DNA from: Bryoerythrophyllum caledonicum
Taxonomy: Eukaryota > Streptophyta > Bryopsida > Pottiales > Pottiaceae
Assembly: GCA_963971425.1 (NCBI GenBank)
Contig: OZ020526.1
Coordinates: 6,041,976 to 6,105,975, forward strand
Length of the DNA stretch: 64,000 bases
Direction of reading: 5' to 3'
Shown in pieces: positions 7,961 to 62,079 of this stretch. The translations under genes were made by a program, and so were the position numbers. Below the pieces are notes generated by a model. That model was not told the origin of the DNA, did no database searches, and saw only the letters and a list, made by a program, of their open reading frames with translations. Each line of letters starts with the position of its first letter. The stretch's first letter is position 1.

Positions 7961-7982
7961 TGTTTTCGAGTGAATTTTCGCG

Positions 7983-12560: not shown

Positions 12561-12674
12561 GGTTATCGGCCCACTACGTCACAACAGATAGAGTCAGTAC
12601 CGCAGTGCCGACTATTGAGTCAATAGAGTTGTCTGCACCGTTACAAAGATAGCGTTGTCTGCGCTACCACCATC

Positions 12675-13555
12675 ATGGGTACAGAAGATTTTATGGCCGA
12701 CCTTGGTGCCGGTCATGCACACGCACACACACCAGTGGTCGAAGAAGTAATGGATGACTACCGGAGTCAGTCTCAAGTACCGATCTCGTACCCTACTAGA
12801 CAGGAATCTGTGAGCCTTACTACGCACGTAGAGAAGCTTATAGGTGACAACTATGGTGTATGGAAGTTTCAAATGAGTGTAATGTTCCGTGCTAGGAAGT
12901 TGATGGGAGTTGTAGACGGTAGTCTGTCTTGGGAAGCTTACATTGACGAGAATGAGTGGGCAGATAAAGATGCGGTCTCTCAATCGATTATCATCTCAGC
13001 CGTGGACCCCAAGCTTTTGCATAGGCTGATGACGTGCAGAACTGCACATCACATGTGGCGCAGATTGAGTACTGTGCATGAACAAAACGCAACTGAGAAC
13101 ATTCAACTCTTACAGCAGCAGTTTTTTGATCTCAAGATGAAACCTAGCAGTTACGTGGTAGACGATATTAGTGCAGTAGAGCAGTTGGCAAACCAACTCA
13201 CAAACTGAGGAGAGCGTGTGAATGAGCAAGCGGTGATTTGTAAAGTGATTTGTTCACTACCACCGAGCTTTAGGTACCTTGCACTTGTTTGGGACAGTGT
13301 CCCACGTGACCAACAGACCATAGAAGCCTTGACGCTGAGGCTTCTTAAGGAAGAAGCACGAAATCGCATGCAAGATGAAGTTGATGGAGAGGGAGATAAA
13401 GCGTTTTCCTCTCATGGACAATCCTCTGGAAGTAGCCAGAAGCCTGTAACCCCGAGGAGAAGAAAAAGCGAGCAACCAAGATAGCTGAACTGAAGAAAAA
13501 GACGAAGTGCAACAAATGTGGCTGCAAGGGGCACTGGGAGAAGGACGCTGACTGC
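12675..13555 (+). pseudogene. Copia-1 gag with zinc knuckle (disrupted)
   Basis: The frame opens MGTEDFMADLGAGHAHAHTP. The copia Gag core follows, with the GDNYGVWKFQM motif and a helical stretch containing MTCRTAHHMWRRLSTVHEQN. A TGA at 13206-13208 interrupts it; the remainder (13218-13484) stays related and ends at a TAG near 13484. The CCHC knuckle CNKCGCKGHWEKDADC lies at 13508-13555 in a shifted frame, so at least one stop and one frameshift separate Gag parts. Gag would form the cytoplasmic virus-like particle. Confidence 0.85.
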
Positions 13556-13639
13556 CCCAAAAACAAGAAGGAAGGTGGGCATGCCAAGACCGAGAAGAAA
13601 CCATGCGCAAAGGCTGACACAAAGAGTGAAGCAAATGTT

Positions 13640-16600
13640 GTGACAAGCAATGACGCTGATGAAGACGACAGTTCTACATTCATGGTCCATACATGCGAAG
13701 ACAAAGATAGAGACACATGGTACATGGACAGAGGAGCAACAAAGCATATGACTCACCGTTTGGAGTGGTTTCAAACCTTCAATAAAGTAGTTGAAGGAAG
13801 GTGGCCAGTGATGATAGCTGATAACAGGCGCCTTTGGGTAAGAGCAACAAGCACAATACATATCCAATGCCTTATTGAAGGCAAATTGCTGGACATAAAA
13901 CTTGAACGAGTTTTGTTTGTGCCTAAACTGCGAAAGAATCTATTCTCAGTGGGGCAGGCTGCCGACCGTGGGTATGTCTCAACATACACAAGGAAAACCT
14001 GCTATCTGGCTACCATGAGCAGAAGCATGGTGATGACGGGAGCTCGTACGACAAAGCAATACAAACTGCAGCTACGAGTCAATCCCCCGGTAAATCATAC
14101 TAACCTAGTGATGACTGCCAATTCTGAGCCACAGCCTTCGCAGACACCACGACTAGCTCTCTGACATCAGAGATTTGGGCACGTAAACTATGCCCTAATC
14201 ATCTAGATGCACTCCCAAGCGAGGGTAGAAGGGTTGGAGCTTCCGAGCTACACCGTACCTCAGAGTCCATGCGAGGGATGTACAATAGGGAAGAGTACAC
14301 GCAAGCCTTTCCCAAAGAAGAGCAACATACCTTCGGCTGATAGGCTAGGCATTTTCCTCCACATAGATGTCTGTGGTCCTATGAATCAATCGTCAATCAG
14401 AGGTGCAAGGTATTTTATCCTGTTCAAAGACGATTGTTCTGGTTTTCGGATTGTTTTCTGTGTCAAGGAAAAATCTGATGTAACAGAATGTTTCAAAGCT
14501 TTGTGCCCATTAGTATCTATCCAGATTGGAAACAACGTCCAGAAGGTCAGGAGCGACCAAGGAGGGGAGTATCTCAACCAAGGTTTCAGCGTTTTTCTTG
14601 CTGCCAACAATATTGTGCATGAACTCACCAGTCCATACTCACCTTAGCAAAATGGAGTTGGAGAGAGGGAAAACCGTTCGTTGGTGGAGTGCATCCGCAC
14701 GATGCTGCATGCAAAAGGCTTGAGTCTTCGATGGTGGGGAGAGGCGGTTCAAACTGCAACATATCTCCTGAACCGATTGGAGTCGCGCACACGCTCTTAT
14801 CAGACCCCGTATGAACTGTGGACCGGCAGGCGACTGATGGTGGGACACCTTCAAGTGTTTGGGAGCGTCGCATTTGTTCATGTGCCAAAAGCTCACAGAA
14901 CAAAGTTGGAGCCAAAAGGCATCAAAACTCTCTTCGTCGGCTACTGCAGCAATACAAAGGCTTATCGATTATGGGACCCGAAGCGGCATCGCATTATTGT
15001 AAGTCGAGGCGTTATTTTTGATGAGTTCACCTCACCTACCGCACATGCACCAGACACGGTCTCTGGTCTCTTCTCTTTGCATACAGTTGGAGAACACGTA
15101 CTACAAGGGGGGCAGCTCGTCAACCTGGACCACATCAACCTGGACCAGAGGTAGAAGCACCACATAGAGGCCATGTTGGAAACCAAGACCAGTTAGCTAC
15201 GACCAGCGAATTAGAGGTCGAGGATTAGGAGGAAGTCACAGGTGAGTATCCCGAGGATGAAGAAAGTGACCCACCCCTTTCAACACGGCCTGCTCGCATA
15301 CAAGGCGCACCTGCCCGGTTCACATACTATTACGTGCCACGATATTTTGCTGGCGTAGCTAGCTCTTCATGCGTAGCCAGTTTGTCAAACGTGGCTAGTT
15401 CTTCTGGATTGACGTCCAAGATTCCAGACGATCCAGAAACATATCAAGAAGCCATGCGAAGTCCAAAAGCAAAGGAGTGGATGGAGGCCATGTAGGCCGA
15501 ATATGACTCTTTGATTAACTCAGGGACATGGAAGCTTGTGCAGCTTCCACAAGGGCGAAAGGCGGGTAAAGTGCAAATGGATCTATCGAGTCAAGACCAA
15601 TCTTGATGGGTCCATTTCGTAATACAAAGCAAGGCTTGTAGCGCAGGGTTGTACACAGACCAAAGGAGTGGATTACGACCAAACCTTCAGCCCAGTCGTC
15701 AAATATGACGCCATTAGAGCTGTACTTAGCATTGCCGCTTAGCAAGCCATGCACATGACGCAGTTCGATATTGAGACAACTTTCCTGAATGACCTCATTG
15801 ACACGGTGCTGTATATGCACCTACCACCAAGTTTCGAAGTCCAAGACTCAGATGGAAAACAACTGGTTTGCCTTGTGCTTCGTGGTTTATACGGCTTCAA
15901 GCAATCAGGGAGGATTTGGAACAAGACTTTCAATGATTTCCTGCTAGAATTCGAGCTTGAGCCAACACAAGCCGATCCATGTGTATGTATCATGAATGGC
16001 ACCCATCCTCATTGTTACCTTGTTCGTTGATGATGGCCTTGTCTGCAGCATCGCCCAAGAACGGCTGGACCAGTTGATGGCATACATGGAGCATCGTTTC
16101 TCCACCACAAGGACCTCCGCCGACTTGTACGTCAGCCTGCATATTCACCAAACAGCCAATCGGCGACTGATCTCTGTCAACCAATCTATATACCTCCGCC
16201 GAATCTTGCTTCGATTTGGTTTCGAAGGCTGCAAGATAACTTCCACCCCCGCTAACCCAAACACGCATTTGGACGACACTATTGATCCTCCCGAGGAAGT
16301 TTCTTTTGCTTACTCGGCCGCTGAGGGACGCCTTCTGTTTGCACAGACTCTCACACGACCGGATATCAGTTTTGCAGTAAGTCGGGTTGCCCAGTTTTCG
16401 GCCAATCCTCAACGACCTCATTTCTTAGCGGTCAGCCACATCTACAGATACCTGGCTGGTACGTTGAATTTATCACTGTGCTATGATGGGCAAGCAGGCT
16501 CCAACACCTTGTCTGCCTTCACCGATGTTGATTATGGAGGCGATGATACTGATAGGAAGAGCCGCTCCGGCACATTGTTGCTTCTTGATCGTGCACCTGT

Positions 16601-17412: not shown

Positions 17413-18235
17413 TGGATTATCAATCTAAAACTATCTTCTCACTAACCATTTGGATTATCAATCTAAAACATATTATGTTCACACAAAATTAAAGCGTGGA
17501 TTGACAGATTTTGTACCTCCATTTCTTGTGCAATTGTTTTGAATATGCTGCACTCCTCTTCTACCACTGAAAATTGGTGTGTAAGGAACTTATATTATGC
17601 TTGACCACATGGTAATGGATTTAGACCTTGTGATGTCAAAAATTTGACAGCAGCTTGAAGTGGATTGCAGACTTTGACTTAACCATTTTCATGACTTAAA
17701 ACACTATAATCATTCAATCTATGCACTCAAAATTTATGAAATTTTGTAAGTATGTTACTTAATAAGTCTTAATTGAGATCCTACGGTCAAAACTAGAAAT
17801 GAAAGTCTTTGTTTCCTTATTTATTCATTGCACTAGAATCCAACAATCTTGAAGTGTTTTTGGTTTAATACTGTCATGGTACCCTAGGGATTCAACATCA
17901 GAAGGCACCACCAGTGGCCACAATAATCTACATGCATAGTCTTTCTTTTATGTGAATATGATAAGGTTTAGATATAGAAATGACCTCCAAATGAAAGATG
18001 TAAGCTGCAAAATCTAAACTTCAATACATTTTTGTATTCTATAGATTGAAATACGTGTGTACATGTATGGTGCGAGACTGATGTTAAAGGGCTAACCAAA
18101 TGAGAAATTAATAATAAAGATCATTTAGACAAACAAACTTAATAATAAACAAGATCATCTTAACTTATATGAAATGATGTGATAAAACGTTTGTGAATTT
18201 TAACCATACAGGTTATGAAATATAATTGCGGTCAA
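17413..18235 (+). repeat. Repeat family A, right part
   Basis: Continuation of the repeat split by Copia-1. It shares CTAAAACATATTATGTTCAC with the complement of 26840-26860, TATGCTGCACTCCTCTTCTA with 25676-25700, and CACCAGTGGCCACAATAATC with 47240-47260. A tail (TGACCTCCAAATGAAAGATG) recurs at 47310 and 51505. No ORF of note. Confidence 0.75.
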
Positions 18236-25219: not shown

Positions 25220-25309
25220 TACATGAGAAGATTTTTATTCTCATCAAACCTCTACTAGAAAAAAGTTATGCCATCTTAAGGAAAAACTTCTCGAATGCTG
25301 TCACATTGC

Positions 25310-26045
25310 GCAACTCCAGAAACTATCAGTAGGACACTCTTTTAAACGTGAGATTTTCAATACTAGCAAATAATAGTAATTCCTATCATATTGTGATAAA
25401 GCAGTTTTTGTCTTTAGTGGAAAAATGCATGTTATCCCAAGTCAATCATTTTCACACATTGTGACACATTGTCCGGCTTGGTACCAAAAAAACTTTTTTT
25501 CCACATATAACTTAGATATTTTGTTTCTTTTTACTTTTAATTTTTTCTTCTACATGATGTAGTGGAAACATACTTATTGACCGTTTGAATTCTCATTCCA
25601 AAGTATATCAAGTCCACAAAAATATAGAACATGAATTGGAAAATTTTGAACCTCCACTCCTTGCACAATTTTTTGAATATGCTACACTATTTTTCTGCCT
25701 CTAAGACTTGGTTTACAAGGGACCTAATATCATGCTTTACATGATGGCAATGAATTAGACCTTGTGTAGTGCAAAACATTTGACACCAAGTAAAGTCAAA
25801 GTCTCTTTGATCCACTTATTGCAGAGAAAAAATGAATTGTTTCTTTACTTCAAACACTATAATAATCTTTCAATCCATGCGGTCAAAGTTTATGAAAATT
25901 TGTGAGTAAGTTACTTAAAAAGTCTTAATTGAGATCCAATGGTTAAAATTTGAAATAAAATTTCTTATTTCCTTCCTTACTCATTGCACTAGAATTGAAA
26001 TAGTCAAAGAAATTTAGAGATTAAGTGGAGATTGCCAACTAGAGA
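25310..26045 (+). repeat. Repeat family A, plus-strand copy
   Basis: Matches the complement of 26480-27130 and parts of 11930-12190 / 17440-17830. Shared phrases: AGGACACTCTTTTAAACGTG, TTTTGTCTTTAGTG, TTTCACACATTGT, GGTACCAAAAAAAC, TGCTACACTATTTTTCTGCC, TCTTAATTGAGATCC. Non-coding. Confidence 0.75.
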
Positions 26046-26479
26046 TTGGCTTGTTGGGACATGGGGATCCACTAGTATATCAGACTTAGTATATTGACCC
26101 GTTGTCTACAACTGGTAATGTAAGTTTTAGTAAGGTAATTAAATTATAAAAGTAAAGTTCATGTCCCAGGTTAACCCCAAAAGGCCCAAAAACGCCATAT
26201 TTATTAAATTGGGAGATTCCCAGGACTTTGAAAGGTATGAATGGTTTTCCCAAAAGTAATTGTTTGCGCACTTTCAAGTTGACTCAAGTTGAATATGTAC
26301 TTCAATTTCTTTGACTTCCATGTAATTTCAAAGATAATTCTAGATACTCAACAAATTGCATTGTGCAAATTCACTAAACATTTGCATGTTTAGGTCAACT
26401 CAAGCTTCAAATATTATTTTCGGAGGATCCGAATCTCCTAATTTAATGAATATGGTGTCCAAGGCATTTTCACATCAAA

Positions 26480-27400
26480 ATCACTCCAAACTACTCATTC
26501 TAGTGCGCATCGAATCGTAGGATCTCAATTAAGACTTATTAAGTAATGTCCTCAGAAATGTCATAAACTTTGACTGCACGGATTGAAAGATTATTACAGT
26601 GTTTGAAGTAGAGAAATCGTTCATTTTCTTCCCTAGGTTGAGTGGATCAGCAGACTGTGACTTCACTTGGTATCAAGTATTTGCATTATACAAGGTCTAA
26701 ATTCATTACCATCATGTTAAGCATGATGTTAGTTCCTTATACACCATTTTTTAGAGGTAGAGAAGGGGTGTAGCATATTCAAAACAAGTGTACAAGGAGT
26801 GTAAATTCAAAAATTGTCAATTCATGTTCAATATTTTTGTGAACTTAATATGTTTTAGATTGATATTCCAAATATTCAATAGGAAGGTTTACACCACATA
26901 TTTTTATGGGAAAAAAAAGAGTAGAAAATATGAAGATCTCTAAGTTTAATGTGGAAAAGTAGAAGTTCTTTTTGTACCTTGCCCGGCAATGTGTGACAAT
27001 GTGTAAAAAATGTTTGGCTTCGGTAAATATGCTATTTTTCATTAAAGACAAGAATTTTTTTTGACAATATGAAGGGAAATCATATTTTCTACACATTGAA
27101 AATCTCACATTCAATAAAGTGTCCTAGCAAAAGTTTTGGAGGTGCTCGACGTGCCCTCTCTTCCCACTTGAAATTCAAAACTCTATAAATTTTTCATCAA
27201 ATGTCGAATTTAGGAAAAAAATGTTCTCCCACTAAAGTCTTAGTAATGCCCTTCTACAGTAAAAATTCCAAAGAGGAATGTTAGAAATTGACACGATAAG
27301 AACCTGACTAAACCTTCAAAATGCCACTTTATGACACTTGGTCCTTTAGAGGTTAAATTTGCATCCTCGTCCTCGGAAATATCTCCTTGTTATCTTTTAG
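26480..27400 (-). repeat. Repeat family A, minus-strand copy
   Basis: Reverse-complement partner of 25310-26045, about 450 bp away, so the two can fold into a large imperfect hairpin. It extends further right than its partner (to GAGGTTAAATTTGCATCC near 27360), where it matches 11690-11930. Confidence 0.75.
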
Positions 27401-28542: not shown

Positions 28543-30990
28543 TTAGGTAGTCCCCTTCCTGTGTTTTTGTAGGTTAGACATTACTTGCACATGGCTGTTT
28601 TTAGCTGATTCATGTATTAAGTGGTGTTGGATGCCAATATGCTTCGTGCGGAAGTGCATTACTTGATTGTCAGTGAGTCTAATACTAGATTGATTATTTG
28701 TGAAGATAGGATTGGAAGTTGTAATGTTGATACCAATTTCTTGCAATAATCTGCGGAAGTATATTATATCCCTAGCGGCATCTGTTAAGAGGTGTTATTC
28801 AGCTTCTGTGCTGGAGAGACTATTGGTTGGATGTAGTTTGCTCGTCCAATTATTTGGTGCACTTCCGAGCTTGTGGGATATGCCTGACGTTGAGCGACGA
28901 GAGTCTAGAACTTAGCCCCAATTGGCGTATGTTGAAATGTGTGATAGTTTGTGGAGTTGTTTGAAGGAAAAAGAAGTCCATATTTGATTGTTTCCTTCAG
29001 ATATTGCAGTATACGTTTGGCTACTTGAAGGTGTGTTTACTCGAGTGAAGCCATATAACGAGCTACACTGCTAACAACATAACACATATCGGGACGAAAA
29101 TTTGTCATGTGTATATTAAGCTGCCGACAAGAGACTTGTATGTCTCAAGGTCTACTTTGGCGGTGCCCATATCTTTTTGTAGATGTAGATGAGGATCCAT
29201 GGACAAAAATCTAGAGTTGCAGTTTGATAGCCCAAACTTCACCAAAAGTTTTTTAATATAATTGGATTATATAAGTAAAATTCCAAGTCTCTTTAGCCGT
29301 TGTATTTCTGCTCCTAAGTATATAGCAGCCTTGCCAAGATTAGTCATAAAAATTTCAATGTTCAAGGCAGCAGTTGCCTTGCAATTCGTTTGTGATCATC
29401 ACCTGTAACTAACGTGTTGTCCACATATAAAAGAAGAAACGTACGTTTGCCATCTTTGGTTGAATAGTAAAGGTTTGGATCAAATTTGCTTCTAGTTAAG
29501 CCCTGAGATTGAAGGTATGAGTCAATACACAAATACCATGCGCTTGGGGCTTGTTTTAATCCATAGAGAGTGCATTTGAGTCGACATGTTTTAAGTGGAT
29601 TTCTTGCATGTGGAAAATCTTCCGGGATTTCCATTATAAGATCTTCTTTTGTAGAGCCATTCAAAAAGGCGGTCAAAATGTCAAGCTGGTGGAGTGGCCT
29701 GTCATTTTCAACTGCTAGTGCTAGAACAGAATTTGGATTGTAGACCATCGTACTACGGGGGCAAACACATCTTGATAGTCTACTCCCTCTTTTGCTGAAA
29801 GCCTCGGGCCACAATTTGTGCTTTGAGTTTCTTGTTATCTTCCAATTTCTATTCAATAATATGGAATTTATCTCGATTATATGGCATTGCGCCAACCTTG
29901 GTGTTGTATGGCTTCTCCGTATAAGAGTGGGTTACCTGTCTGTTTTGCACTTAACATCCAAGAATTGTGATATTTGGTGGATGTTTGCTTGGATCGGATC
30001 AGGTAACTAGTGCTTAGTTGCGGCCCTTGTGTTAGTCGAGCTGCAACCATTGAGATCTCTTGTGGCTGCCTTGTAGCTGGCGGAGGTTCTTGAGTTTAAG
30101 CAACTTATTGGGGCCTACCAGTGTCGAAGTCACTGGAGATTGACTTGTGACTACTAGAGCTAGCTATAATTGGCTGACTGTGTGCGTTTTCTCCTACAGT
30201 GGGTAAGTCATGGGACGGAGGAAGCTGGGCTGTCGGCCCGTCGCTGCACGTCGATGCAAATTTATACATGTTTCTAATTCTATGAGGCTACGTAGAGAAT
30301 TGGGTTTTGGGCCATCATGAAGGAAGGTGTGTATACTAAACCTGGGTAAATCCTCATGACATGGTTGTTCAAAGTGTTGCAGTCTTATCTTGGTTTCGTC
30401 AAAACCACGTCTTGTGAGATCATGATTTTTTTATTGATGAGGTCATAAATTCTATAGGCCTTGGTCTCCTGATTGTAACCAACAAAAATTCCCTTCTTTG
30501 TTTTTCCAACCAACTTCTAATGAGTTTAGTTAGGGACATGTCAATAAGTAGTATAACCAAAAATCGTGAGGTTGGTTAGATCAAGTTGTTTACCTATATT
30601 GCTCGCCTTTGGAGGTATCTCGTAGTTTGTCCTTGTAGGGCTCCGGTTGATTAGGTATGTTGCCATGGATATAGCTTCAAGCCAAAGATATATTGGTAAA
30701 TTACAATCAGCTGCAATACATCGTGCCCGTTTTAGAAGAGTCATGTTTCTTCGTTCAGCAACTCCGTTTTGCTAAGGGGCTCGTGCTTGTGTTCCCTAGT
30801 AATGCCATGTCTTGAGCAATGTAAAATAAATTGACAAGAAAGATATACTCCACCACATTTTGAGCGTAAGAACCATATAGGATTATCAGTTTCAATTTCC
30901 AAATTTTGCTTTGAAGTCGCAAATTTGAGAAAATGTTTCGCTTTTGTACTTGAAAAAGAAGGTCCAACTCTTGTGTGAGTAGTCGTCAGT
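28543..30990 (-). pseudogene. Copia-3 integrase, RT and RNase H remnants
   Basis: Integrase: NGVAERRNMTLLKRARCIAA and LWLEAISMATYLINRSPTRT (about 30770-30600), with earlier pieces to about 31230. Reverse transcriptase: RPLHQLDILTAFLNGSTKED (about 29690), KCTLYGLKQAPSAWYLCIDS (about 29540) and FLLLYVDNTLVTGDD, where the YVDD box reads YVDN (about 29430-29400). RNase H end: TNNQSSIRLTDNQVMHFRTK and HIGIQHHLIHE (about 28700-28590). Numerous stops and shifts show long inactivity. Confidence 0.82.
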
Positions 30991-33594: not shown

Positions 33595-34300
33595 ATTTAG
33601 TTGACCTTTCAAGTTCCTTAATTTTTCCACACCAAAGTACAGTCTTCAAAATTGTTGATTTATGTGTTAAAGAGTGGAAAAGGAAAGGACTTTTACTCCC
33701 AAATTGAATCACAGTGATCTTCATTACAACTAATAAAGTAACATGCTCACAAAATTCCATAAACTTTCATCGTACGGATTGTAAGATAGTAGTGTTTTTC
33801 TTCCTTGAGTTGAGAAGGTCAATAGACTTTGACTTCATTTGATTTCAAACTTTCGCACTACATATGGTCTAAACTTTACGATACCATGATAAATATGATA
33901 TTAGTTTCTTGTATATCAATTTTTAAAGGTAGAAAAGGGATGTAGCATATTCAAAAAATATTGTGCAAGGAGTGTAGGTCCAAAATTGCCAATACACATC
34001 ATATTTATTTTGGTGAGCTTATTACGTTTTAGATTGAGAATCCTAATGGTCTACAAAGAAGGTTTACGCCACACCTTGTAGTAGAAATTAGAAAAAATTT
34101 AAAATTTCAGATTTCTAATTTTTATGTGGAAAGGAGGAAGTTTTTTTGGTACCTTGCTCAACAATGATTGTGTGTGAAAATGTTTGACTTGGGTTTAAAT
34201 GCTCTTTTGCACTAAAGACAAGATTATATTTTGACAATATCTTGGAGAATATTATTATTTATTTGTATGAAAAAATTCAATGTCATTAGAAGCAATTAGC
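33595..34300 (-). repeat. Repeat family A, minus-strand copy
   Basis: Shares TTCATCGTACGGATTGTAAG, CAAGGAGTGTAGGTCCAAAA, TTACGTTTTAGATTGAGAAT and GGTTTACGCCACACCTTG with other family A copies in the same order as 26560-27060. Non-coding. Confidence 0.7.
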
Positions 34301-48364: not shown

Positions 48365-50060
48365 TCACAAGCTCCTCAACAGAAGCCACTTCACCGTTCT
48401 GAGGTACAAGAACCTGGCACTCAAGCTCACACTGATCGCTCCGGTGATGGCCAGAAACACAGCCGAGGGCCGCTTCCCAGCCGACGCCTCCACCTCCCTC
48501 TTCTCACCCTCCTTCTCACGTTCCTGGTCTTTGCCAGCTCTCCACACTGAGATAGCAAGGAAGATCCCGAGCGCAGCAGCTTGGATCACAGGCTCCGAGA
48601 CCGTCACCAGCGCCACGGTCGCGGGCATCGCCACCGTGACGGCGTCTCCCTTCTGGACGAACTTGGCGAAGAGGGTGATGAGGAGCAGGGAGGGGACGAC
48701 GGCTTCCATGGCGACGAGCTCGAAGAGTGCGGCGAGGCTGAGGGCGGCGGCGACGGCGACGAGCTTGGAGCGGGAGCCGCGCGGTCTGGGGGACGCGGCG
48801 TCGCCCACGCTAAGCACGGCGAGCGACAGGAGGAGCGCCGTGAGCAGCGGTTGCACTGGCGCGCTGTCCACGATGAACGTGTACGTGTCGTCCACCGCCA
48901 TGATGGCCCAGTTCGCTACCGTCATCAGGAAGGCGAGTGGCCCCGCGGTGGCGTTCGTGAGCTTGCCCAGGCCGATCTGTAGGTAAAAACATGCGCGTCA
49001 AGAGAGTGTGTCAGAAACTAAGGCTAATCTGAAGAGAAAAATCCACACATGCCTCAGAAATGGTGTTGATGTAACGCCCAATTTCCATGCTTCAGTTTAT
49101 CTTGTTCACTTTGTGAAACCATGTCATTCTCATAAGTCATCTTCATTTATAATCTGGAGCCACAAAGGAACACCGATGAGGAAAGCATTCCATCTTTTTT
49201 CCATATTGAGTTGGGAGCCTGGTGAGGTACAAGAAGCGCCGCAAAATTCCACGAATATCAACACATTATACGAGTATGAAAGCCATTTCTTAGGGAATGT
49301 ACACTCACAGTGATGCCTTCCGCGATATACAATGCGACGCGAGCGAAGTTGATCCCCCAGTTCGCAATCTCCAGCAGAATCACATCGCGCATCAACACCA
49401 CCACACAAAACCCTGCACCTCCCAATTATCAATCAAAAAGTTATCATGAAAGAAAACAAAATCAAGCGCCTCAGACCCGAATGCTCTCCAGAATCGTGCA
49501 AACAAGAGCCACAACACGAAAGCTCAAGTTTCTGCCGTGGAATTTCTCTAGTGCCCTAAACCCTAATCTCACATTTTCACCTCTCCGCAGCGAATTCGCG
49601 TGAGAATTGAAATGCATATCCAGGTCCCGAAACCCTAACCTCACGTTTGTCTCAAAAAGCTGCCTCCCATTGCGAAACGAAGAGGATTCATCTCAAGCTC
49701 TCCACTGAAATTCTCACCAGCTGCGTATAAGAAGAGGTTGGGCGGGTCTCCGCGGTCCACGATCAAGTCCCGAAACTGCGCGGGGAAGCTGCTGTTGTCG
49801 TCAGCAGGATCCCGAGAGGCTTCCTCCTCCGCGGGCTCCTCACCAGCCGCGGCAGCAGCCACAACACGTGGACACAGGCGCGCTCTCCTCCTCGTGAGCG
49901 CTCCATCGAAGCCAGCCCGCAACCTGGAGACGTGCGTAATTGGAGAAGCGAGGCCGATCCTGGCGCGGGAAGCGCATCGCGATGGGAGCGTTGGAGAGTG
50001 CGGCAGGCTCACTAACCCCGGCCGCTTGAGGTGCAGCTGCAAGTGGGCCGACATGGCCAT
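48365..50060 (-). CDS. Predicted plastid multi-pass membrane protein, function unknown
   Basis: Three exons (50060-49718, 49412-49309, 48976-48365) join in frame to 352 codons with GT-AG introns. Residues 1 to about 65 form a plastid transit-like leader (MAMSAHLQLHLKRPGLVSLP, rich in Ser, Arg and Ala). An acidic linker follows (EEPAEEEASRDPADD), then DRGDPPNLFLYAAG at the end of exon 1. Exon 2 encodes VVVLMRDVILLEIANWGINF. Exon 3 holds four or five hydrophobic helices (such as PVQPLLTALLLSLAVLSVGD and KLVAVAAALSLAALFELVAM) and a charged loop DQEREKEGEKREVE before the last helix. I expect an inner-envelope or thylakoid protein, but do not recognise the family. Exons are GC-rich and introns AT-rich. 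Confidence 0.78.
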
Positions 50061-50690: not shown

Positions 50691-50859
50691 GGTTGTAGGG
50701 AATATTTAAATCACCTCCATGTATAAGTTGCATTTAGATGAATTTGCATAAATAGATGGATGGGAAGAATGTTTGTTGACAAGAGGTTACTAAATTCTTT
50801 TGTTTTAAACCCCTACATTACTTTGACAATTTTACACCAAAAACACTTTAAAACTATTT

Positions 50860-51660
50860 GTTTTAGTGCAATGAGTAAGGAAGAATATAACAACTTTTAT
50901 TTCTAGTTTTAATCGTAGGATCTCAATTGAAACTTATTAAGTAACATACTCGGAGAATTTTGTACACTTTGACCGCACGGAATGAAATATTATAGTGTTT
51001 GAAGTAGAGAAAAGGGTTTATTTTCTTCTTTGCGTTTAGTGGATTAGCACACTTTGGCTTCACTTGGTATCTAGTTTTTGCACTACACAAGGTCTAAATC
51101 CATTACCATCATGTTAAGCATGATATTAGTTCCTTGTACACCACTTTTTAGATGTAACCCAAATGGATGTAGCATATTCAAAAAATATTGTGCAAGCAGT
51201 AGAGTTTCATTACATTTTTTGTAATCCTACTGTGTCAATTTATAACATTCTTTTTAAAAATTTACTGTAGATGGACATTACTAAAAGCTTTGTGTGAATA
51301 CAAAATAATTTACTTTGTAAATCTTAACCTTCAAGAGTCTTCCGAGGGGCTCTTGGTAATTTAGGAATTAAATGGAATTCAACATGTACATGCGTGGTTA
51401 TTTAGAGATTACCTTTAAATGTCAAAAGGTGCCACTAGTGGCCACAATATTCTATATGTATGGTGTTGTATCTTAACATGAGAAGGTTCACATATTGAAA
51501 TGACCTCCAAATGAAAGATGCTAGTTGAAGTATCTTCAACCTAGAGGTGGAAGTCTTGCTAGATTTCATTACATTTTTTGTATTCTACAAAGTAAAATAC
51601 GTGCATGTATATACGGTTCTCGGCTAACATTTAAAGGTTATAGTGGGTTACAATTATTTT
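50860..51660. repeat. Repeat family A, rearranged copy
   Basis: 50860-51215 is a minus-strand piece (GATCTCAATTGAAACTTATT, ACCATCATGTTAAGCATGAT, GTAGCATATTCAAAAAATAT). 51340-51660 is a plus-strand piece (GGTGCCACTAGTGGCCACAA, ATGACCTCCAAATGAAAGAT). The two halves are joined head to head. Non-coding. Confidence 0.65.
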
Positions 51661-53372: not shown

Positions 53373-54528
53373 TTTTTAGTTGTTATCTCTCTTGTTATCA
53401 CAAATATAGCAAAAAATCACCGTAGAATTTTTTACAGCTAAATTTAGTGGATTGGATATTTTAATTTATAATATCGACCATAAAGTTCTCAAGGATATAA
53501 AGATGAGGTATGGCATTTGTTGGAACCTAAATGAGGTACATGATGTGGTTAGTATTGAATTATTATGTGTTTTTTGTGTAGAGCACCACTTCAAGTGTAA
53601 AGAACAATGCGCCGGTTAAATTGCAGTATTTAATATATTGTAGTGTTGAAAGTAATTATAAATTTGATTTTTAAGAACATTGAAATGAGATTAGAGACAC
53701 TTAATACAACCTTGTTGACTAAGAGGTAACATCTTCGACATCGTTATTTACGTGATTGAACACCTTAGTTGTTGATAAATATATTGAATCGTTATTTGAC
53801 GCGTGTTAAAATCAAGACAATTTTTCATTCCATATAGCTAAACTGCCAAACTGAAAAGAGCAAAAAACGGCGATCATTGACAAAGTGGTTATACCTTGGT
53901 GACAAAAATTATGTGAAATACATATTCATGCAACTTAATTATTTTAACCATATTAATTTTTGTATAAATTTGTGTATAAATAAATCAATTGTCAAAATCT
54001 TTATCGTAAATCATATGTGGATACCGTGTATGGTTTTGAAGTGTATGTTTTACATATTTTATAATTTCATGAGAGACGATTATTCCTATGACTCCCACGT
54101 GTTTATACATCTCATCATTCTTTCCTTGAAATTAAGTTCGTAAAATCCACAAACACCAGGCACATGTGTGGCGTGGGCCGTAAGGCATACTGCACGCGGC
54201 TGTATTTATTGAATTTTTTGCATATATTAATAAATCGCTCGAGTTGAAGTGCAAATTTATGTCGATTAATTGACTATAGATTGGTTAATACATTGTCGTG
54301 CACAACCGCATCATGCCAAGATAACATCGTACTAATCAGGTGAGAGCGCACAATCAGAGACAACTCAAGAGTAACGGTGACACAACCACCACCGTTACCT
54401 CTATTAAATAATAAAATAATACACACTTGCACAGTATCAACAATCCAGTCTTAGTGAAAAGAAATAAATGACTCATAACCTCGTACACCAAGAAGTAGTA
54501 AGTGGTCTACAAGTACCGCTTTACTAAA
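53373..54528. other. AT-rich DNA and probable outer LTR part
   Basis: No gene recognised. 54316-54528 probably belongs to the 3' LTR of the element to the right (contains paired GTAACGGTG and CACCGTTAC at about 54373 and 54391), but the truncated 5' LTR does not extend far enough to confirm it. Confidence 0.4.
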
Positions 54529-54673
54529 AAACAAGTGAAACGCATTTGTAAACATACAACAAAGTCAAGTCAATGCCATTCTTAAAGAATGATCGCATAA
54601 TAACAATGAAGCTAACAAAGTGCACGTACGCACGCACGCACGCACTTTCTCACTCCACCACGTGGGAGACTCA
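54529..54673 (-). repeat. LTR-like direct repeat, 3' copy
   Basis: On the minus strand starts TGAGTCTCCCACGTGGTGGA. Matches 61295-61427 except for a longer ACGC microsatellite (54627-54644). The true LTR probably extends further left, to about 54316. Confidence 0.6.
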
Positions 54674-54851
54674 TGTTCCTCTACCTCCACTGCTCCATCC
54701 GCGAGGCCTACTATTGGTTTCTAAATGTCCTTAGTCACACCACCTCCTTTGATTCCTTTGGAGTAGGGTTTTCTACCCTTGGTTGCTATTGAATCCCATG
54801 TGAAGAAAACTCCTCTCCTCCGTCCTCAATAATGCTCCCAAGTCCTTCCAA

Positions 54852-56150
54852 TTAACCCAGATTGTCAATTTCTTCCATGTGAAGAGCTCTGTGTTCTTCC
54901 AAAAAGATCTTCTCCACAACATCCTCCAAATCTATCATCTGGTGTGTCAATCTGCTTCCTTCACTCCACTTCTTCCTTTCATAGTGAAGATCTGTTGCTT
55001 TAGTGCTCGCAAAAATATTTGCAGTACTCCACATATTCCATGGATGAGATGCAAAGGCCCTCTCACCCCCAACCACTTTGCTTGTCACCTTAATAGAGGT
55101 TAGTGGTTCTCCTGCCGCTCGCAACTCATAATAATCCATGTAACTGGTCAAGCTAGAAGCTAAACGCTTCTGTTCGGCAACCACTACCAATACAATCAAA
55201 GTCAGGCAGTTTAAATCCATTGCCTGACCAAGTAAAAATTGTTTCTGTGGTTATGAAATTCCAGGCTCGTCGGTGGTGCCAGTGGGAAAATCCATGGCTC
55301 TCTCCCGCTCATCTGCATTAGGCTCTACCATCTCTTGAGACAATGAATCCCATACAAGCCCATATCCATTGAAAACATAAGACCATGCAAAACTAACCAA
55401 CGTGGGCAAGGCCTTACATGGTTCCCCCTTGCGGTTAACCACCGCTAATGGACCAAATTAATGGTGCTTAGTCATCGTGATACACGCGCCGTGGAGTCCC
55501 GTGAGGGTCCAAAATATCACTCACATACACATCCGGACATTTAATGCGACTCACCGCGGACTGTAGCAACTCTGCCGGAGCCAGGTTTGTCCACCACAAG
55601 CGTGGTCGATGTGCTCTTGACTCCATTGCAACCGCATCAGTTAACACTGGCAAACCCAAAGTCTGATGGATGCGGTGCATACTCTCCAATGTCTTTGACC
55701 TCGAACTGCTGACTACCGGCACGTTCTCTACAATATAACATGGCGGTTGCCTCTGAGAAGTTTGAAGCAACCGTAGCACTTGAATCATGTCAAAAAACCT
55801 GGAAGAACGAGAGTCCTTTAACCCATTCTGATTGCTTGCCATAGACATGTCTTGGCTAGGCCATCCTAAAATGACAAGGTCAACATGACCCACACGATGA
55901 ATGTCATCATCTGATAGCAAGAAAATATCACCTACAAGTGTACAGAAGGAAGTTTTGATGGCACTAATCGCCAATAATTCTAGAAATTATATCTTCAGTC
56001 TCCATGAGTGACGTTTGGCCACATGCTTTGCTGCTTCATCTACGTCCACATAAATGTAGCGCTTAACTTTGATCCCTAATTGTAAAATAGCTGTCAATCT
56101 TGTATCAATTCTTCCAAAAAGCTCCAACAACACAATGCCATCCGTTGGTG
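54852..56150 (-). pseudogene. Cytosine-5 DNA methyltransferase domain (DNMT3-like order), inactivated
   Basis: C5 motifs appear in the canonical order. Motif I is LLELFGRIDTRL (complement of about 56135-56091), followed by YIYVDVDEAAKHVAKRHSWR. Motif IV is VDLVILGWPSQDMSMA (about 55885-55840). Motif VI is YIVENVPVV (ENV at 55728-55720). Motif VIII is SRAHRPRLWWTN (about 55620-55585). A target-recognition-like part runs LPTLVSFAWSYVFNGYG, and motif X is LLGQAMDLNCL (about 55240-55205). The catalytic Cys of P-C-Q is Ser (AGC, 55857-55855). Stops lie at 55989-55987, 55470-55468 and 55253-55251, with a frameshift near 55460. Plant DRMs have circularly permuted motifs, so this is not a DRM. Product once intended: methylation of DNA cytosine. 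Confidence 0.8.
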
Positions 56151-56159
56151 CCTTCCAAT

Positions 56160-57326
56160 GGATGGTAAAAGTGTCTAGGGAGGCTCTAGGTCTTGCTCAA
56201 CTCCAGGCTCCAGTTGCATTTATGGTAGCATAGAATATTACCATGCTATTTCCATCGCTAAGTCCGCGGCCTCCCTCAACTGGGTGGTGTTGTTCTACGC
56301 CGCCTCGATCCCAGGTTGATATCCTTCTTCCTCTCCACCACTTGTGTTGTCCATATAGACATCCACTTTCTCTGAAGTATGGTCAGCAATAGAAGGATCC
56401 TCAAAACTTGCCTGAAACCATGAAGGTTTCATATTCATACATCCAGAGAAGGCAAACACGTCAACAAGGTTACCAGTAAGAACTCGAACAAATCGAGCTG
56501 GCAGCTCAGCCTTCCGCCCATCTCCTACTTGTCATCCTGGTCTATAGCTTGCTAACTCCTCCCAGAAATCCAAGGTGAATCCCATTGGGTATAGCACTGT
56601 TGAGCCCACCTAGACAAAATATGACTTGGCCTCTGTGACTATTGCCTTCACCTTCATGGAACTGACATCTGCCACATCACTATGATTGAGTTGTGACACT
56701 AACTCAATCCTTGTCATACCCGTAGCGTGCTTCGTACCCCCCATGGATGTGCTAAATTATCCATGGACTCTTCTCCAAAATATCCCCAATTAAATCCAAT
56801 CCTTCAATAGCGGATGCTTCTAACATCAAAGATTGAGCTCCTGAATCCAAAGCACACGTCGAGGTACAAAAACCTTCCCCTTAGGCCCAACGAGTTGGAA
56901 AATGCCTTGGAAATTGTCACCCACCACCACACCAGGGGTAATGGATGACCTCTCAATCGCAGGTCTGGCGGCCATTGTCTTGACTCGCATGGCTACTGAG
57001 AGTAGCCCCTCTATATTGTCGCTCTGACTCTCCTCTGCATTGATTATCTCCGTCTTCAACACATTGACACCCGTGGAGTTGTCCAACTCACACATTGAGG
57101 CTATTGTCTTGAAAACCTCTACTACACTGAAGCCACCTTGTGACAACATCTTAGCAGAAAACAACGAAGCTTCCCATGTAGAAGTTGTTGCTTCCATAAG
57201 TGCTTCGGAACCTCCTGTGGATCCTCCAGCTCGTGGTGAGGCTCGTTTGGGTGTCACCACCGGTTGTGTCGGAGGCACCATGGACGACCTGGGTACCATC
57301 TCTTCTAACGTGAAGGATTGAGGCAA
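56160..57326 (-). pseudogene. Middle ORF between Gag and methyltransferase
   Basis: An open piece at 57326-56826 begins MPQSFTLEEMVPRSSMVPPT and holds LSQGGFSVVEVFKTIASM and VGDNFQGIFQLVGPKGKVFV. The reading then continues with stops through KAIVTEAKSYFV (TAG at about 56618) VGSTVLYPMGFTLDFWEELA and AELPARFVRVLTGNLVDVFA to about 56400. It runs into the methyltransferase, so it may be its N-terminal part. The segment around TGNLVDVFAFSGCMNM could be a structured domain; I do not recognise it as protease or RT. Confidence 0.45.
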
Positions 57327-57600
57327 TCGTGCTTGTCAATTATCCTTTCTATCGTGAGGATTTAGAGTTGGACTAGCTCCACGTAGAACATCCTTAGAAA
57401 TTAGAGTATGGCTCTATGTGAGGGCATAGGCGTCCTATGTGCCATTCCTGATGGCAAGTGCCATGCCACTCAATATGAAGTCTTCAAATGCATTATCCAC
57501 GAAACTAAAACCACCCTCAACATGGAAACTAGGAGTAACCTGAGAGTTGCCACCTACCATGGTAGTGTTGGCATTCATTGCTTCCATTTTGGCCTCCAAA

Positions 57601-59515
57601 CTAGGCTTTCCAGCTCTTCTTTTCTCCTCCAGTGGCTTTGGTCTCTTTCTCCTTGCTTCCTGCTTTGGATCCCTTTCTCCCAGTGGACTTCAACTCTAGA
57701 TGAAGCTTCCAGTAGATGGCCTCCGCATGCCCTTTGGGACCACAACCAGAGCAGAAACCTCCAGCCTGAGGTGTGGAAGCCTTACCTTCCTTGCAATCTT
57801 TCCTCTGATGTCTGGCTTCCCACATTTGAAGCACAAGACACTAGTGTCTACGTTGTACGATGGAACAACGACCTTGGCGACCTTAAGCTTCTCCTGGACC
57901 TTTTCTTAACGTTTGAGACATCCCATGGTTGCCTTCTCTTCTAGTAAATTTATCTCAATCCGCTCCTAGGTTTTAGAAACAAACCGTAGTGTAATTGGTA
58001 CTCCCAATCGCAATGCCTCATTGCGAACAAAGGTCTTCAATTCCTTGTCCAGGATAGTGTATTAGTGTTGCACTACCTGTTGTTCTGTAACTCCGTGAGT
58101 GGCTGAGATTAGTCTCCTTAATTTTGCATGTGCCTCTCTCAGAGACTAGTCATCTCCACGTGTGAAGGAAGGAAGGGCCTTCATTTTATCCGCCCTTTGC
58201 CCTTGATAGTTTCTATTGAGTTGCACAAAGAACCCAACAGTGGGATTGAATAAAGGTCGGTGATTCATCAGTTCCTCCGATTGCATCCTATCATCCATCG
58301 TGCTCGTGCCTTCCTCCATCTTCCCCTTAGACAAGAGCCGTGATGTCACCCTCGGTGCTCCACCGGATACGTTCACATAGTTCGGTGCGTAGAAATCTCT
58401 CCAGGCTATAATTTTGGTGAAATGAGCTTCCTTGAACTCTTCGTAGACCGCTAGTGGAGCTCCTTTTAGGCACCTAAACAATGTCCTCCACACCATGTAC
58501 GGATTGAAGTTGGGATTATGGGACTTCTGGAGTTCACACCACATGGTAAACTCCCTCTTGAAGTCATCGACTTCGATGGTGCTCGTGGCACCCAAAAATC
58601 TCCGTACCCCTCGTTCTCCACCTACATATGGTGAAGCCATCTCCTTCCAATCAAAATATGACTGGGAAGGCTTTGTAGGTAAAATTGGGACCTAAACACT
58701 CACCTTCGGGTTTTGAAGAAATTTCTCTTCTTCTACTAGTGGCAAAACACTGTCCTCTGCATCTTCTGGTTGACCACGAATTTCTGTCAATACCCTCTCA
58801 CTAGCATCTACTGAGGGGGAGTGTTCCTCCGTGTAAAATCGGACCTTTCCAGTTATCCAAATTGCTAGTTGGATGATTTATTCGAACAATCGCCAAGCTT
58901 TAGGACTCTTTTCATCTCTGGAGCATAGATCGTAGGTGTCACTTCCGAGTCCAACAACTCTAAGGTAAGAATATTCCAGACACTAGTGGCACACTCTTGC
59001 CACGTGTTAACCTCCCACAACCACATAGTGTGGAATAAGAACCCTTCGCTCTCGAACTTAGTGAAGATAAGAGAGGAGGTGGGTAGTTGGATGCCTGAAG
59101 AGAAATCCTCTACTCCTATACCATACCTTGATTCAGAATTCCGAAGGATCACAGCCTTACCTCCAATCACCAAATCCTCGATCCTAACATGCCCATCGGC
59201 GCGGCACAAAGGTGCTGGAATTTCCTCCTTCCGAAGTGAGCGGATCTTCCGCACTCCACCAAGTGAAATCCAATATTTCACCGATTCCGCGTTCAACACT
59301 TTTGTACCTGGTTTACGCAAGTTCTGGGGCTCCGTGCAAGATCTGGCTATGGGAAAGAGCTCAAAGTCCCTGTGATTATCACTTGCTGTGGAGGGAGAGC
59401 CTTTCACTTGTAGGCTCTGCAAGCAAGTGACCAAGGTGTCCAGCACCTTTCCATCAATTTCCACCTTTGATCCACTAGCATTCTCAGGTTTCTTAGCCTT
59501 ACCTTTTTTCTCCAT
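57601..59515 (-). pseudogene. Gag-like ORF with two zinc knuckles (disrupted)
   Basis: The frame opens MEKKGKAKKPENASGSKVEI at 59515 and runs 216 codons to a TAA at 58865. A frame-shifted continuation reads MASPYVGGERGVRRFLGATS (58640) and then a retroviral-type Gag core: VDDFKREFTMWCELQKSHNP, MVWRTLFRCLKGAPLAVYEE, to 58146. Two CCHC-like knuckles follow: CFKCGK, with a frameshift before HQRKDCKEG (about 57840-57800), and CSGCGPKGHAEAIYW, whose last Cys reads Trp (about 57762-57715). A basic Lys/Gly-rich tail comes next. This would coat the element RNA. Confidence 0.65.
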
Positions 59516-59929
59516 GGTCCATAATTTAAGCTCTAAGTATTATTCCAACACCTTTAAACCATATTAATAATGTCCCCGCAAGCTTCAAGCTTCCACCTTA
59601 ACCTCCCCTCTGAAATATTACACCCTCCTCACATCTCTACTATATTCTTGAAATATTCATGATCACCTCATAAGATACCTCAATTGAATCCTCACTACGT
59701 ACCACATGCGGACTGCCATATATGTAGCTGAAAAGTTCTTACACATGTATAATCTAGTAGTGGATGTTGATCAAATAGTAGTTAACTGGATAGAGGGTCT
59801 AGAATTTAAAGGAGGTAGTACTATCGATCCGTTTTAATCTCCCTAAGTCAGCTCTAATTTTTTTATCACTTAAAGTGTGGGATACGGCTGTGATATGGTA
59901 CGATACGGATAAAATATGGACGTGGCTGT

Positions 59930-60275
59930 GTATTGCCGGGTATAGGACCCCGAGGGATGTTCCAACTGCCAGATATCAGTCACGCTGCCGGATATTATAT
60001 CCACTGCCGAATATCAGTCTTACTACCGGGTATCAGACCCATTGCCGAGTGCCAAACTCACTGTCGGGTATCAGACCCATTGTCGCGTATCAGACCCACT
60101 GCCGGATATAAAGAACGTTGTCGGGTATTAGGAACGTAGCCGGATTTCGGGAACGTAGTCGGGTATGAACAGTCGGGTACCAATATCAGCAGGTCAGGGT
60201 ATGAGTATTAGATGGCCGGGTATAAGTCATCAACTGAGTCTGAGTATCAACAGGACGGGTATGAGTTAATAGCCG
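59930..60275. repeat. Degenerate 20-24-bp minisatellite
   Basis: About fourteen units based on CTGCCGGGTATCAGACCCA with drift to GTCGGGTATTAGGAACGTAG. It lies in the leader of the gag-methyltransferase element. Each unit has a short self-complementary GGGTAT/ATACCC-like core. Confidence 0.85.
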
Positions 60276-60294
60276 GGTATACATATGAGCATTC

Positions 60295-60430
60295 ATGTCA
60301 ACGCCTGTCTGTGTACACCGCATCTCCCGTGTTTGTCTGCATACCGCCTCTACCACGTCTATTTGTGCACGTTGAACCTCCCACGTCTGCACACCGCACC
60401 TCTTGTGTCTATACACATCCCAACTCACAG
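60295..60430. repeat. Degenerate 30-bp repeats
   Basis: Four to five units with a GTCTG-A-ACCGC-TCTC-CGT pattern (60304, 60335, 60357, 60385) directly follow the minisatellite. Confidence 0.6.
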
Positions 60431-60504
60431 AACCACAGACAAAATCACTCCTTCACCCGTCCTTTCCTCTCACACCCTAGTTGCAGATTCTCACTTCAAC
60501 GGCA

Positions 60505-60815
60505 CCATGTCTCTCCAAGCAGCATGCTCCCAGCTCTTGCAATACCAACACAAGCACACAAGGTTGCTAAAAGACCTGCAACGCGGACATGATTGTAGGA
60601 AGTCACTGATTATGTTGCTGTCGAGTTCCGCAAAGGGGATCTTGGTGAGCTACTTGATCTACTCGGAGGGGTTGATTCCCTACCGAAACCCCTCCCTTTA
60701 CCACCTAGTATCCACCCCGCGCTCCGCCTTTGACTTTGCACACGTCGTTGCTGCTGGAGCGGCGGCGAATAAATCAACTCCGGTGCGCTCACCTGGTCCG
60801 ACTTCGTCCCGATAG
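60505..60815 (+). CDS. Uncertain ORF in the element leader
   Basis: From an ATG near 60507 a frame reads MSLQAACSQLLQYQHKHTRL and LLSSSAKGILVSYLIYSEGL and ends at TAG near 60815. It is antisense to the retroelement. Composition is protein-like, but the opposite strand is also open. It could be a captured host fragment or chance. Confidence 0.2.
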
Positions 60816-61294
60816 TCATCTTCGAGGTCTTCTCACGCTCTGGCTAGCTCTGCATCCACGGGCTCCAACGCACTCTATCTTGTGACACCCTATCGACCCT
60901 CTCTACGCCACGATGAAAGGGTTTGGGTCGCCTTCGAACTTCCAGCCGACCACCATCACGACACGAGTTGCACCTCTAGCAAGCTCCTACAAACTTCCAA
61001 CGTCAACAGTCCGCACAAAGCGGATCTTGCTTCATCCACCAACCACGGATAAATATCCAAGGTCAACGCGGTTTCATCTATGTTGGTTGGCATACGGTCA
61101 TCCTCTACCACTCCTTTCCAACCTTATCCCCAACTTTCATTCATTCTCTTCTAAGTATGCTTGAGCTTTTGCATCAACAATTTCAACACTAAAACATTGC
61201 TCAAAAACACCTCAAAGTCAAGAAAAACTAAGTTTTAAGTTTCAAAAATCCATCAAGAATACACTCATATCTAAATGGGATCTTTCTAAATAAG

Positions 61295-61427
61295 AAACAA
61301 GTGAAACGCACTTGTAAACATACAACCAAGTCAAGTCAATGTCATTCTTAAAGAATGATCGCATAATAACAATGAAGCTAACAAAGTGCACGCACACACT
61401 ATCTCACTCCATCACGTAAGAGACTCA
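61295..61427 (-). repeat. LTR-like direct repeat, 5' copy (truncated)
   Basis: On the minus strand starts TGAGTCTCTTACGTGATGGA and stops matching the 3' copy after CGTTTCACTTGTTT, so the rest of the 5' LTR appears lost. Confidence 0.6.
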
Positions 61428-62079
61428 ACTTGAGAAAGATGAGTCTCCTCCAACTACACGTGGAGGTCATTTGGACTCCAAGTCCCAAATGAGGTGTCAA
61501 AAGATACCACCAATGCCCTAAAAGTCAAAAGACTCTAGTACTAACTCTAATTAACAACTAGAGCTAGAATCTAGGTCTTCCTTTGGCCACTTAACCTCCT
61601 AGTTGGTTTTTAACGCATAAATCAACCTCCACAAATCTTCCAACGCGCCAAACCTGACAATCCCGTAATAGAATCAGTTAGGTTGCAAAGTTTCAATAAA
61701 ACAATAAGATCAAGACAAAGGTGAACTTGAAACATCAGTAGATACGTAAAAATGAGATGAAAAAGCTATGTCATTACAAGCCCTACATGCTTTGAGAGAA
61801 GCACCAGAGATTGCATCTAAAGTAAAAGCCACGGACTGAGATGGAACGTATCAAAACGTATGTAATGAGGCCAATGATCGAATTAGATCATAAGAAACTC
61901 CAAAAATTGAAATACATATATTACATTACACGCAAATGTCAATTCCTACACCTCCAAATGATCGTATTTGGTATTTCCAATTTACTTGTTGTTGTTCTTG
62001 TCTTTATCATGACAACTAGCACATAAATCATCTACAAAAGTTGGTTGAAGACGCAAACAAAGAAGCAGTTCCATTATCA

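Follow-up and report, generated by a model that had tools for sequence, protein, structure and literature searches.

Few retrotransposons are known to carry a cytosine-5 DNA methyltransferase (DNMT). De Mendoza et al. (2018; PMC5890265) described such LINE and DIRS elements in Symbiodinium and such a Gypsy element in Klebsormidium, the last with DIRS-like repeats, and according to Sarre et al. (2025; PMC12344493) some DNMT3 members reside in retrotransposons, as had been found earlier in streptophytes and dinoflagellates. Here we describe an element of this kind from Bryoerythrophyllum caledonicum, found in a 64,000-nucleotide (nt) stretch of contig OZ020526.1 (C15:6041976-6105975 of a 437-Mb assembly of 894 contigs). 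This stretch is referred to as the window, and positions are given in its coordinates. The window copy is a dead derivative, deleted for reverse transcriptase (RT) and integrase, of a multi-copy Ty3/Gypsy-type family whose other members carry Gag, protease (PR), DNMT, RT and integrase.

The closest known system is KnitGypsy-Dnmt3 of Klebsormidium nitens, and the present family is that kind of element in another host: compared by description, both join a Gypsy Pol to a Dnmt3-related DNMT and DIRS-like repeats. The available part of the published account also describes Gypsy long terminal repeat (LTR) domains, a non-rearranged DNMT and purifying selection, all shared here, but it places the DNMT within the Pol polyprotein, whereas here the DNMT precedes a leaky-type stop together with Gag and protease; that part makes no mention of stop context, PHD finger, self-primer or target duplications (PMC5890265). 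SymbioDIRS-Dnmt3 and SymbioLINE-Dnmt of Symbiodinium are likewise DNMT-bearing retrotransposons, the former with DIRS repeats in the order A-coding-B-A-B, but they are described with a tyrosine recombinase or LINE machinery (PMC5890265), in contrast to the DDE integrase, RNaseH and protease found here. The Tcn1 and Tf1/Sushi chromoviruses are Ty3/Gypsy elements that also self-prime, but they carry a chromodomain, whereas our family has a PHD finger and its open reading frames (ORFs) gave no Pfam match to a chromodomain; in the main text of the source the words "methyltransferase" and "PHD" have 0 occurrences (PMC6317226). A literature search over titles and abstract beginnings, with most subscription journals outside its scope, returned no land-plant case, leaky stop or PHD finger in such an element among the matches listed. 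New here are the host, the stop that places the DNMT on the Gag side, the PHD finger, the self-primer, the target duplications and a second family.

Relatives in the Same Genome

A first-pass annotation of the window had proposed a retroelement with its own DNMT, and had named the lack of any joint occurrence of Gag and methyltransferase elsewhere in the genome as an outcome that would speak against it. A genome profile search with PF00145 gave 1053 first-look candidates, of which 123 were scored and 20 of these lie in frames of at least 1300 amino acids (aa). The element DNMT is present in 27 of the 28 scored places examined (the exception is L002, described below), L003-L009 being assigned by tblastn at 85-99% identity and L010-L029 by fetched pieces; the other 95 scored places are outside this count. 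The 20 places fetched as 10-kb pieces are biased toward good copies, since 18 were selected for frame lengths of 1300 aa or more. The window's family (family 1) accounts for 17 of the 20 and consists of two subfamilies with about 84% and about 72% DNA identity to the window; the other three (L025, L026 and L028) form a second family (family 2). At 18 of the 20 (L010-L026 and L029) the Gag knuckles, the protease and the methyltransferase lie in a single open frame, so that both the proposed retroelement and the joint occurrence of its parts are upheld.

A full copy reads, in order, A1, leader, ORF0, ORF1 (Gag-CCHC-protease-DNMT), UAG, ORF2 (RT-RNaseH-DDE integrase-PHD finger), B1, gc, A2 and B2, where A and B are terminal repeats. 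Across both families ORF1 measures 1332-1371 aa in 16 of 20 places, ORF2, which is uninterrupted at nine of the 20, measures 1041 or 1047 aa, and Pfam domains were found for both frames in each family. Identity of ORF1 between families 1 and 2 is 36%, which argues that the combination of Gag and DNMT is old. ORF0 is present at all 17 family-1 places, with 216-248 aa at 15 of them and shorter frames of 135 and 168 aa at two; the family-1 motif recognised none in the three family-2 places. Compared with the Protein Data Bank (PDB), ORF2 of L010 matches Ty3 (3.4e-95), and its PHD finger finds its best matches in the fingers of CHD4, PHF12, KDM5 and ATXR5, several of which read unmodified H3K4. 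The order PR-RT-RNaseH-integrase and the Ty3-like RT place the relatives in Ty3/Gypsy, with the DNMT inserted between PR and RT; of this Pol, just PR and the start of RT are left in the window. An earlier idea of ours, a non-autonomous Gag-PR-DNMT element, was dropped after RT and integrase had been found in the relatives.

The Window Copy

Comparison by blastn with 17 same-genome copies (the coding part matched in all 17, the ends in copies with fetched ends) sets the whole remnant at 54294-61659 on the minus strand, from the A1 start (TGTCAGG) to the B2 end (GCACGACA), in place of the limits 61427-54529 given at first. The direct repeats at 54.6 and 61.4 kb that had been noticed are real and belong to the element's ends, which disposes of the possibility that they are unrelated to them, but they represent merely the last part of terminal repeat A; LTRs of about 149 bp, as the visible repeats would give, were abandoned once the same-genome copies had defined the full ends. 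The left terminal repeat A1 (61292-61659, minus strand, as are all parts below unless stated) equals the A of the relatives and includes a self-primer segment (catctttctcaagt, 61428-61441), the 13-nt exact complement of the post-A1 site in 8 of 8 family-1 copies tested. The corresponding primer-binding site, located directly 3' of A1 by comparison with relatives (61279-61291), is a degraded remnant in the window. The leader contains 19-bp tandem repeats (59965-60147, strand not assigned), and ORF0, a predicted frame that is open in the window and has counterparts in relatives, occupies 58865-59539.

Along the minus strand there follow Gag, the zinc knuckles, the protease and a DNMT3-like methyltransferase. 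The Gag-like core with zinc knuckles of the first-pass annotation is confirmed: a protein database search with the Gag ORF (58691-58146) yielded 245 candidates, of which 21 proved to be relatives (best E 1.3e-65), with weak Pfam Retrotrans_gag in two of nine alignment members and zf-CCHC in seven of the nine, one member, the Gag piece of the window itself, stopping short of the knuckles. The two CCHC knuckles (57700-57860), identified from translations and from zf-CCHC in relatives, are both damaged in the window. Between Gag and DNMT lies a retropepsin-like protease overlooked at first (56530-56960, with LDSGAQ at 56850-56833), identified by sequence reading and relatives, its weak Pfam Asp_protease match falling below the cut-off. 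Relatives were needed for these assignments, as the Gag, knuckle and protease pieces of the window copy matched no relevant Pfam family.

The methyltransferase, with a C-terminal tail ending in ..GIQ, spans 54789-56196 and matches PF00145 (E 1e-08 on 55986-55468). The C5 methyltransferase motifs do stand in the order first read, with corrections: motif IV is GWPSQ and not GWPCQ, the catalytic Cys codon having become Ser (55857-55855), the motif I loop is altered, a stop lies in frame at 55989-55987, and the frame breaks near 55470. Because of the Ser in place of the catalytic Cys, the changed motif I loop, the stops and the frameshifts, this copy is dead. Behind the DNMT come the stop context CAA-UAG-CAA-CCA (54780-54791), which is of the leaky type, the start of the RT frame (about 117 nt, 54669-54785), a deletion breakpoint with five shared nt (TGAGT), the last part of A2, starting exactly 3' of the self-primer (54526-54673), and the right terminal repeat B2 (54294-54525). 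The early statement that RT and integrase are absent holds at the Pfam level, at which neither was matched in the window copy, but it does not hold for the RT remnant (54785-54669) or for the relatives, which carry both.

Substitutions were placed on branches at sites where one copy from each subfamily agree. On the window branch C>T or G>A account for 216 of 361, versus 79 of 225 on the L012 branch, and their rates in CG (35/213) and CHG (44/262) are both above that in CHH (137/1368), the pattern expected from long methylation followed by deamination. The dead deletion derivative, the RT, integrase and PHD finger of other copies, the DNMT3 type and the charophyte precedent were all missing from the first reading.

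Similarity and Constraint of the Methyltransferase

Of 822 candidates in a protein search with the window DNMT, its stop read as X, 181 are relatives at E<=1e-3, the best of them 72% identical to the query at 98% query coverage. Among the best 120 of the 181, five DNMT proteins carry a protease tail and six a (G/S)IQ end, five of these six with the family's tail; the catalytic Cys is kept in 55 of the 59 whose motif IV could be read, and motif VI retains its EN in 89 of 94. In the same genome, all 15 long frames examined retain motifs IV (PCQ) and VI (ENV). Retention of these motifs and of the Cys suggests that catalysis is selected, a result with which an RNA substrate is still compatible. 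Overlaps of 161-165 aa at 79-83% identity connect two Gag-PR proteins (P0130, P0136) with two PR-DNMT proteins (P0118, P0120). Scans of viral contigs gave one distant match (L001, 25% identity) and nothing more, a scan of genome contigs found none, and a plasmid scan gave 44 records, the best 20 of which have identity below 60% and query coverage of at most 44%.

Searched against PDB, the DNMT profile ranks DNMT3A first (6.7e-14), followed by DRM2 (1.3e-06), HhaI (3.1e-06) and DNMT2 (0.26), with no DNMT1- or CMT-labelled chain among 57 sequences up to E 10. Together with a motif order that is not rearranged, this structure-profile ranking makes the element DNMT a predicted DNMT3 type. Between L010 and L012, which represent the two subfamilies, dN/dS is 0.042 for DNMT (approximate, given a DNMT dS of about 1.6), 0.07 for Gag, 0.105 for PR, 0.02 for RT and 0.025 for integrase, and 0.36 for the tail behind the DNMT, at dS values of 0.6-2. 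Judged by these ratios, the DNMT is under strong constraint.

Element Ends and Target Duplications

Both ends were read in 10 fetched copies (L010, L011, L012, L013, L015, L019, L020, L021, L023 and L025), and all 10 have outer ends TGTC...GACA and 4-bp target duplications, features typical of LTR retrotransposons. Of the 10 family-1 copies whose upstream flank was retrieved, 9 have repeat A1 (366-370 bp) at the left; no left end was found for L017 and L024 within the short pieces retrieved. At the right, B-gc-A-B is complete in 10 of 17 family-1 places and B-gc-A extends up to or near the piece end in three more (L022, L027 and L029), while L017, L023 and L024 have one B alone. The ends of family 2 are arranged in the same way, with B measuring about 106 bp (in L025, and in L026 as far as its piece reaches). 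A1 and A2 are 98.7-100% identical in eight copies, which marks transposition as recent.

The two integrated ends are not identical LTRs: the left is A and the right B-gc-A-B. The split repeats A-coding-B-A-B are those of DIRS elements, but DIRS elements are not known to make target duplications, whereas here 4-bp duplications are found in 10 of 10 copies, and the integrase is of the rve type and not a tyrosine recombinase.

A Predicted Leaky Stop Between the Two Frames

ORF2 is in frame with ORF1 and separated from it by one UAG. The stop lies in the context UAG CAR YYA at 18 of 20 places (15 CAA CCA, 2 CAA UCA and, in L028, 1 CAG UCA); the site was not found in L027, and in L024 (G000:C3:4090000-4099999) a sense codon at the conserved UAG yields a fused DNMT-RT frame of 1710 aa. 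On sequence, UAG CAR YYA between two in-frame coding regions is a stop of the type I readthrough class, also named tobacco mosaic virus (TMV)-type. Its position places the DNMT with Gag, ahead of the stop, and leaves RT and integrase behind it, to be made by readthrough, which is predicted at this UAG. The same UAG CAR YYA is described as the type I leaky context of plant RNA viruses (PMC11166343), whereas here it stands in a retrotransposon.

Predicted Self-Priming and a Proposed Life Cycle

In Tf1 the first nt of the RNA fold back as primer. Directly 3' of A1 in our family stands ACTTGAGAAAGAT, whose exact complement occurs within A, 135-138 nt before its end, in 8 of 8 family-1 copies tested; shuffling the A of L010 gave such a complement in 0 of 20000 trials. 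The family-2 pair, ACTTGACAAAGAC and GTCTTTGTCAAGT (2 of 2 copies), differs from that of family 1 at two positions, both compensated, so that over both families the 13-nt pairing is found in 10 of 10 copies tested and covaries. Tf1/Sushi elements are reported to self-prime, and the same has been predicted for two plant clades, Tcn1 and TAR (PMC6317226). Directly before B1 there is a purine-rich run (gaagggggcg in family 1, agggggggca in family 2), and a 10-bp palindrome, GACAGCTGTC (GACA-gc-TGTC), is common to both families at the inner integrated-end site. Under the ordinary rules of reverse transcription, a primer site after A1 and a purine run before B1 define the repeat as B-gc-A. The purine run thus points to B-gc-A as the reverse-transcribed repeat, and the integrated form would then be best explained by a circle.

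The following life cycle is proposed. The element would be transcribed from A, and the 5' nt of the RNA, folded onto the post-A1 site, would prime reverse transcription. Most ribosomes would halt at the UAG and yield Gag-PR-DNMT; RT, integrase and the PHD finger would be added by the few that continue. Particles would thus contain the DNMT at the level of the coat protein, and there it would most likely methylate the new cDNA, before or at integration. Reverse transcription would define the B-gc-A repeat, with expected ends AGTAAAGG/..TTGTT and A|B joints in the circle, the integrated ends TGTC/GACA lying inside it at the palindrome. The integrated A-coding-B-gc-A-B would correspond to a circle with two B-gc-A repeats end to end, opened by integrase at the inner site of the left one, and the PHD finger may steer integration to chromatin with unmodified H3K4. 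Taken as a whole, this account is probable: the window element is an RT/integrase-deleted copy of a recently active, DNMT-carrying Ty3/Gypsy family, which would be self-primed, express its enzymes across a leaky stop, package the DNMT for cDNA methylation and integrate from a circle; the role of the DNMT and the route of integration are the inferred parts.

Several points weigh against this account. The left repeat of L014 was not found within 3 kb, no B was seen in L018, and the window copy lacks a matching 4-bp target duplication (GGAT versus ATGT). Single-B copies, which we had considered as proof of circles, were dropped in that role, as recombination between B1 and B2 gives the same A-coding-B product. 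The alternative circle product A-B-gc-A-coding-B occurs in 0 of 11 left ends read, a bias that the model leaves unexplained. Additionally, among 959 candidate database proteins of 715-2275 aa none matches the DNMT, so that outside the same genome the link between Gag and DNMT rests on the overlapping fragments, and the approximate omega of the DNMT belongs with these reservations.

Alternative Explanations

The repeats allow another route to the same circle, in which B2 forms the end of the RNA and the cDNA ends are joined into that circle, for use by the integrase, with the inner B1-gc-A2 as splint, all else being as proposed above. Such a DIRS-like route fits the A-coding-B-A-B formula for DIRS elements that KnitGypsy-Dnmt3 shares (PMC5890265), and a nick at the new B2/A1 joint would account for the single product. 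We nevertheless consider it unlikely: the primer site exactly after A1 and the purine run exactly before B1 fit ordinary strand transfers making B-gc-A, and the element has a DDE integrase with 4-bp duplications and no tyrosine recombinase. Somewhat less improbable, though still not favoured, is that the DNMT is packed for a role other than cDNA methylation, such as RNA binding or methylation, chaperoning, or marking or silencing of the insertion site or host genome. Purifying selection alone does not specify a substrate, and RNA methylation and chromatin effects are discussed in the available part of the K. nitens account, whose authors saw no activity of that enzyme in yeast and call the result inconclusive (PMC5890265). 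The motifs and Cys kept in the long frames and database relatives argue that catalysis itself is selected, and methylation of RNA would still satisfy them. That the DNMT is a chance neighbour of a Gag fragment, or a nested insertion beside it, could be entertained solely if the window were viewed alone; given that a single Gag-PR-DNMT frame recurs at 18 of the 20 places and that a second family, at 36% identity, has it too, it is refuted for practical purposes.

The loss of RT and integrase from the window copy is more evenly balanced. Its RT frame ends at 54669 and the sequence resumes as A2 tail from 54673, with TGAGT shared, and this tail starts at the nt right after the self-primer, the expected end of minus-strand strong-stop DNA. 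A misplaced first strand transfer would account well for this deletion, although B2 alongside then needs a later joining step. A plain genomic deletion, by comparison, leaves B2 beside the A tail without extra assumptions, five shared nt at a breakpoint are typical of deletions, and the missing target duplication points to later rearrangement, but the start of the A2 tail exactly at the strong-stop position would then be coincidence if random. We give the plain deletion slightly less than an even chance.

Other Features of the Window and Genome

The methyltransferase at L002 (G000:C14:16014858-16018817, 1501-2460 minus) is a full-length C5 methyltransferase frame of 370 aa and of bacterial HhaI type (PDB HhaI 2.6e-41). 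It is unlike the element DNMT, to which it gives no tblastn match, and is either a bacterial-derived plant gene or a contaminant. Downstream of L011, about 1 kb behind the element copy, lies a perfect tandem repeat of 51-bp units (L033). Copia-type remnants (Retrotran_gag_2, SH3_retrovirus, RVT_2) occur in the window at 12627-15151 plus and 29365-29931 minus, and an interspersed repeat of several hundred bp is present in many, partly inverted copies (11706-12190, 17445-17895, 25302-27356, 33685-34273 and 50805-51209). Host genes encode the RNA polymerase III subunit RPC4 (7974-8969 plus, E 1e-17) and an AtTam38-family protein (48368-48997 minus, E 3.3e-25), both of which fit a plant.

Implications

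These elements present a paradox in that they carry an enzyme normally turned against them. We tentatively propose, as a possibility that we would not yet prefer, a plant DDE-integrase lineage in which the circle would be opened at the inner GACA-gc-TGTC, the DNMT made at coat level through a TMV-type stop, new copies self-methylated and integration steered by the PHD finger. How a DDE integrase uses sites inside the repeat made by reverse transcription is the mechanistic question that the ends raise. The constraint on the DNMT, the recent copies, the two distant families and the Gag-side gene order make self-methylation of cDNA directly testable.

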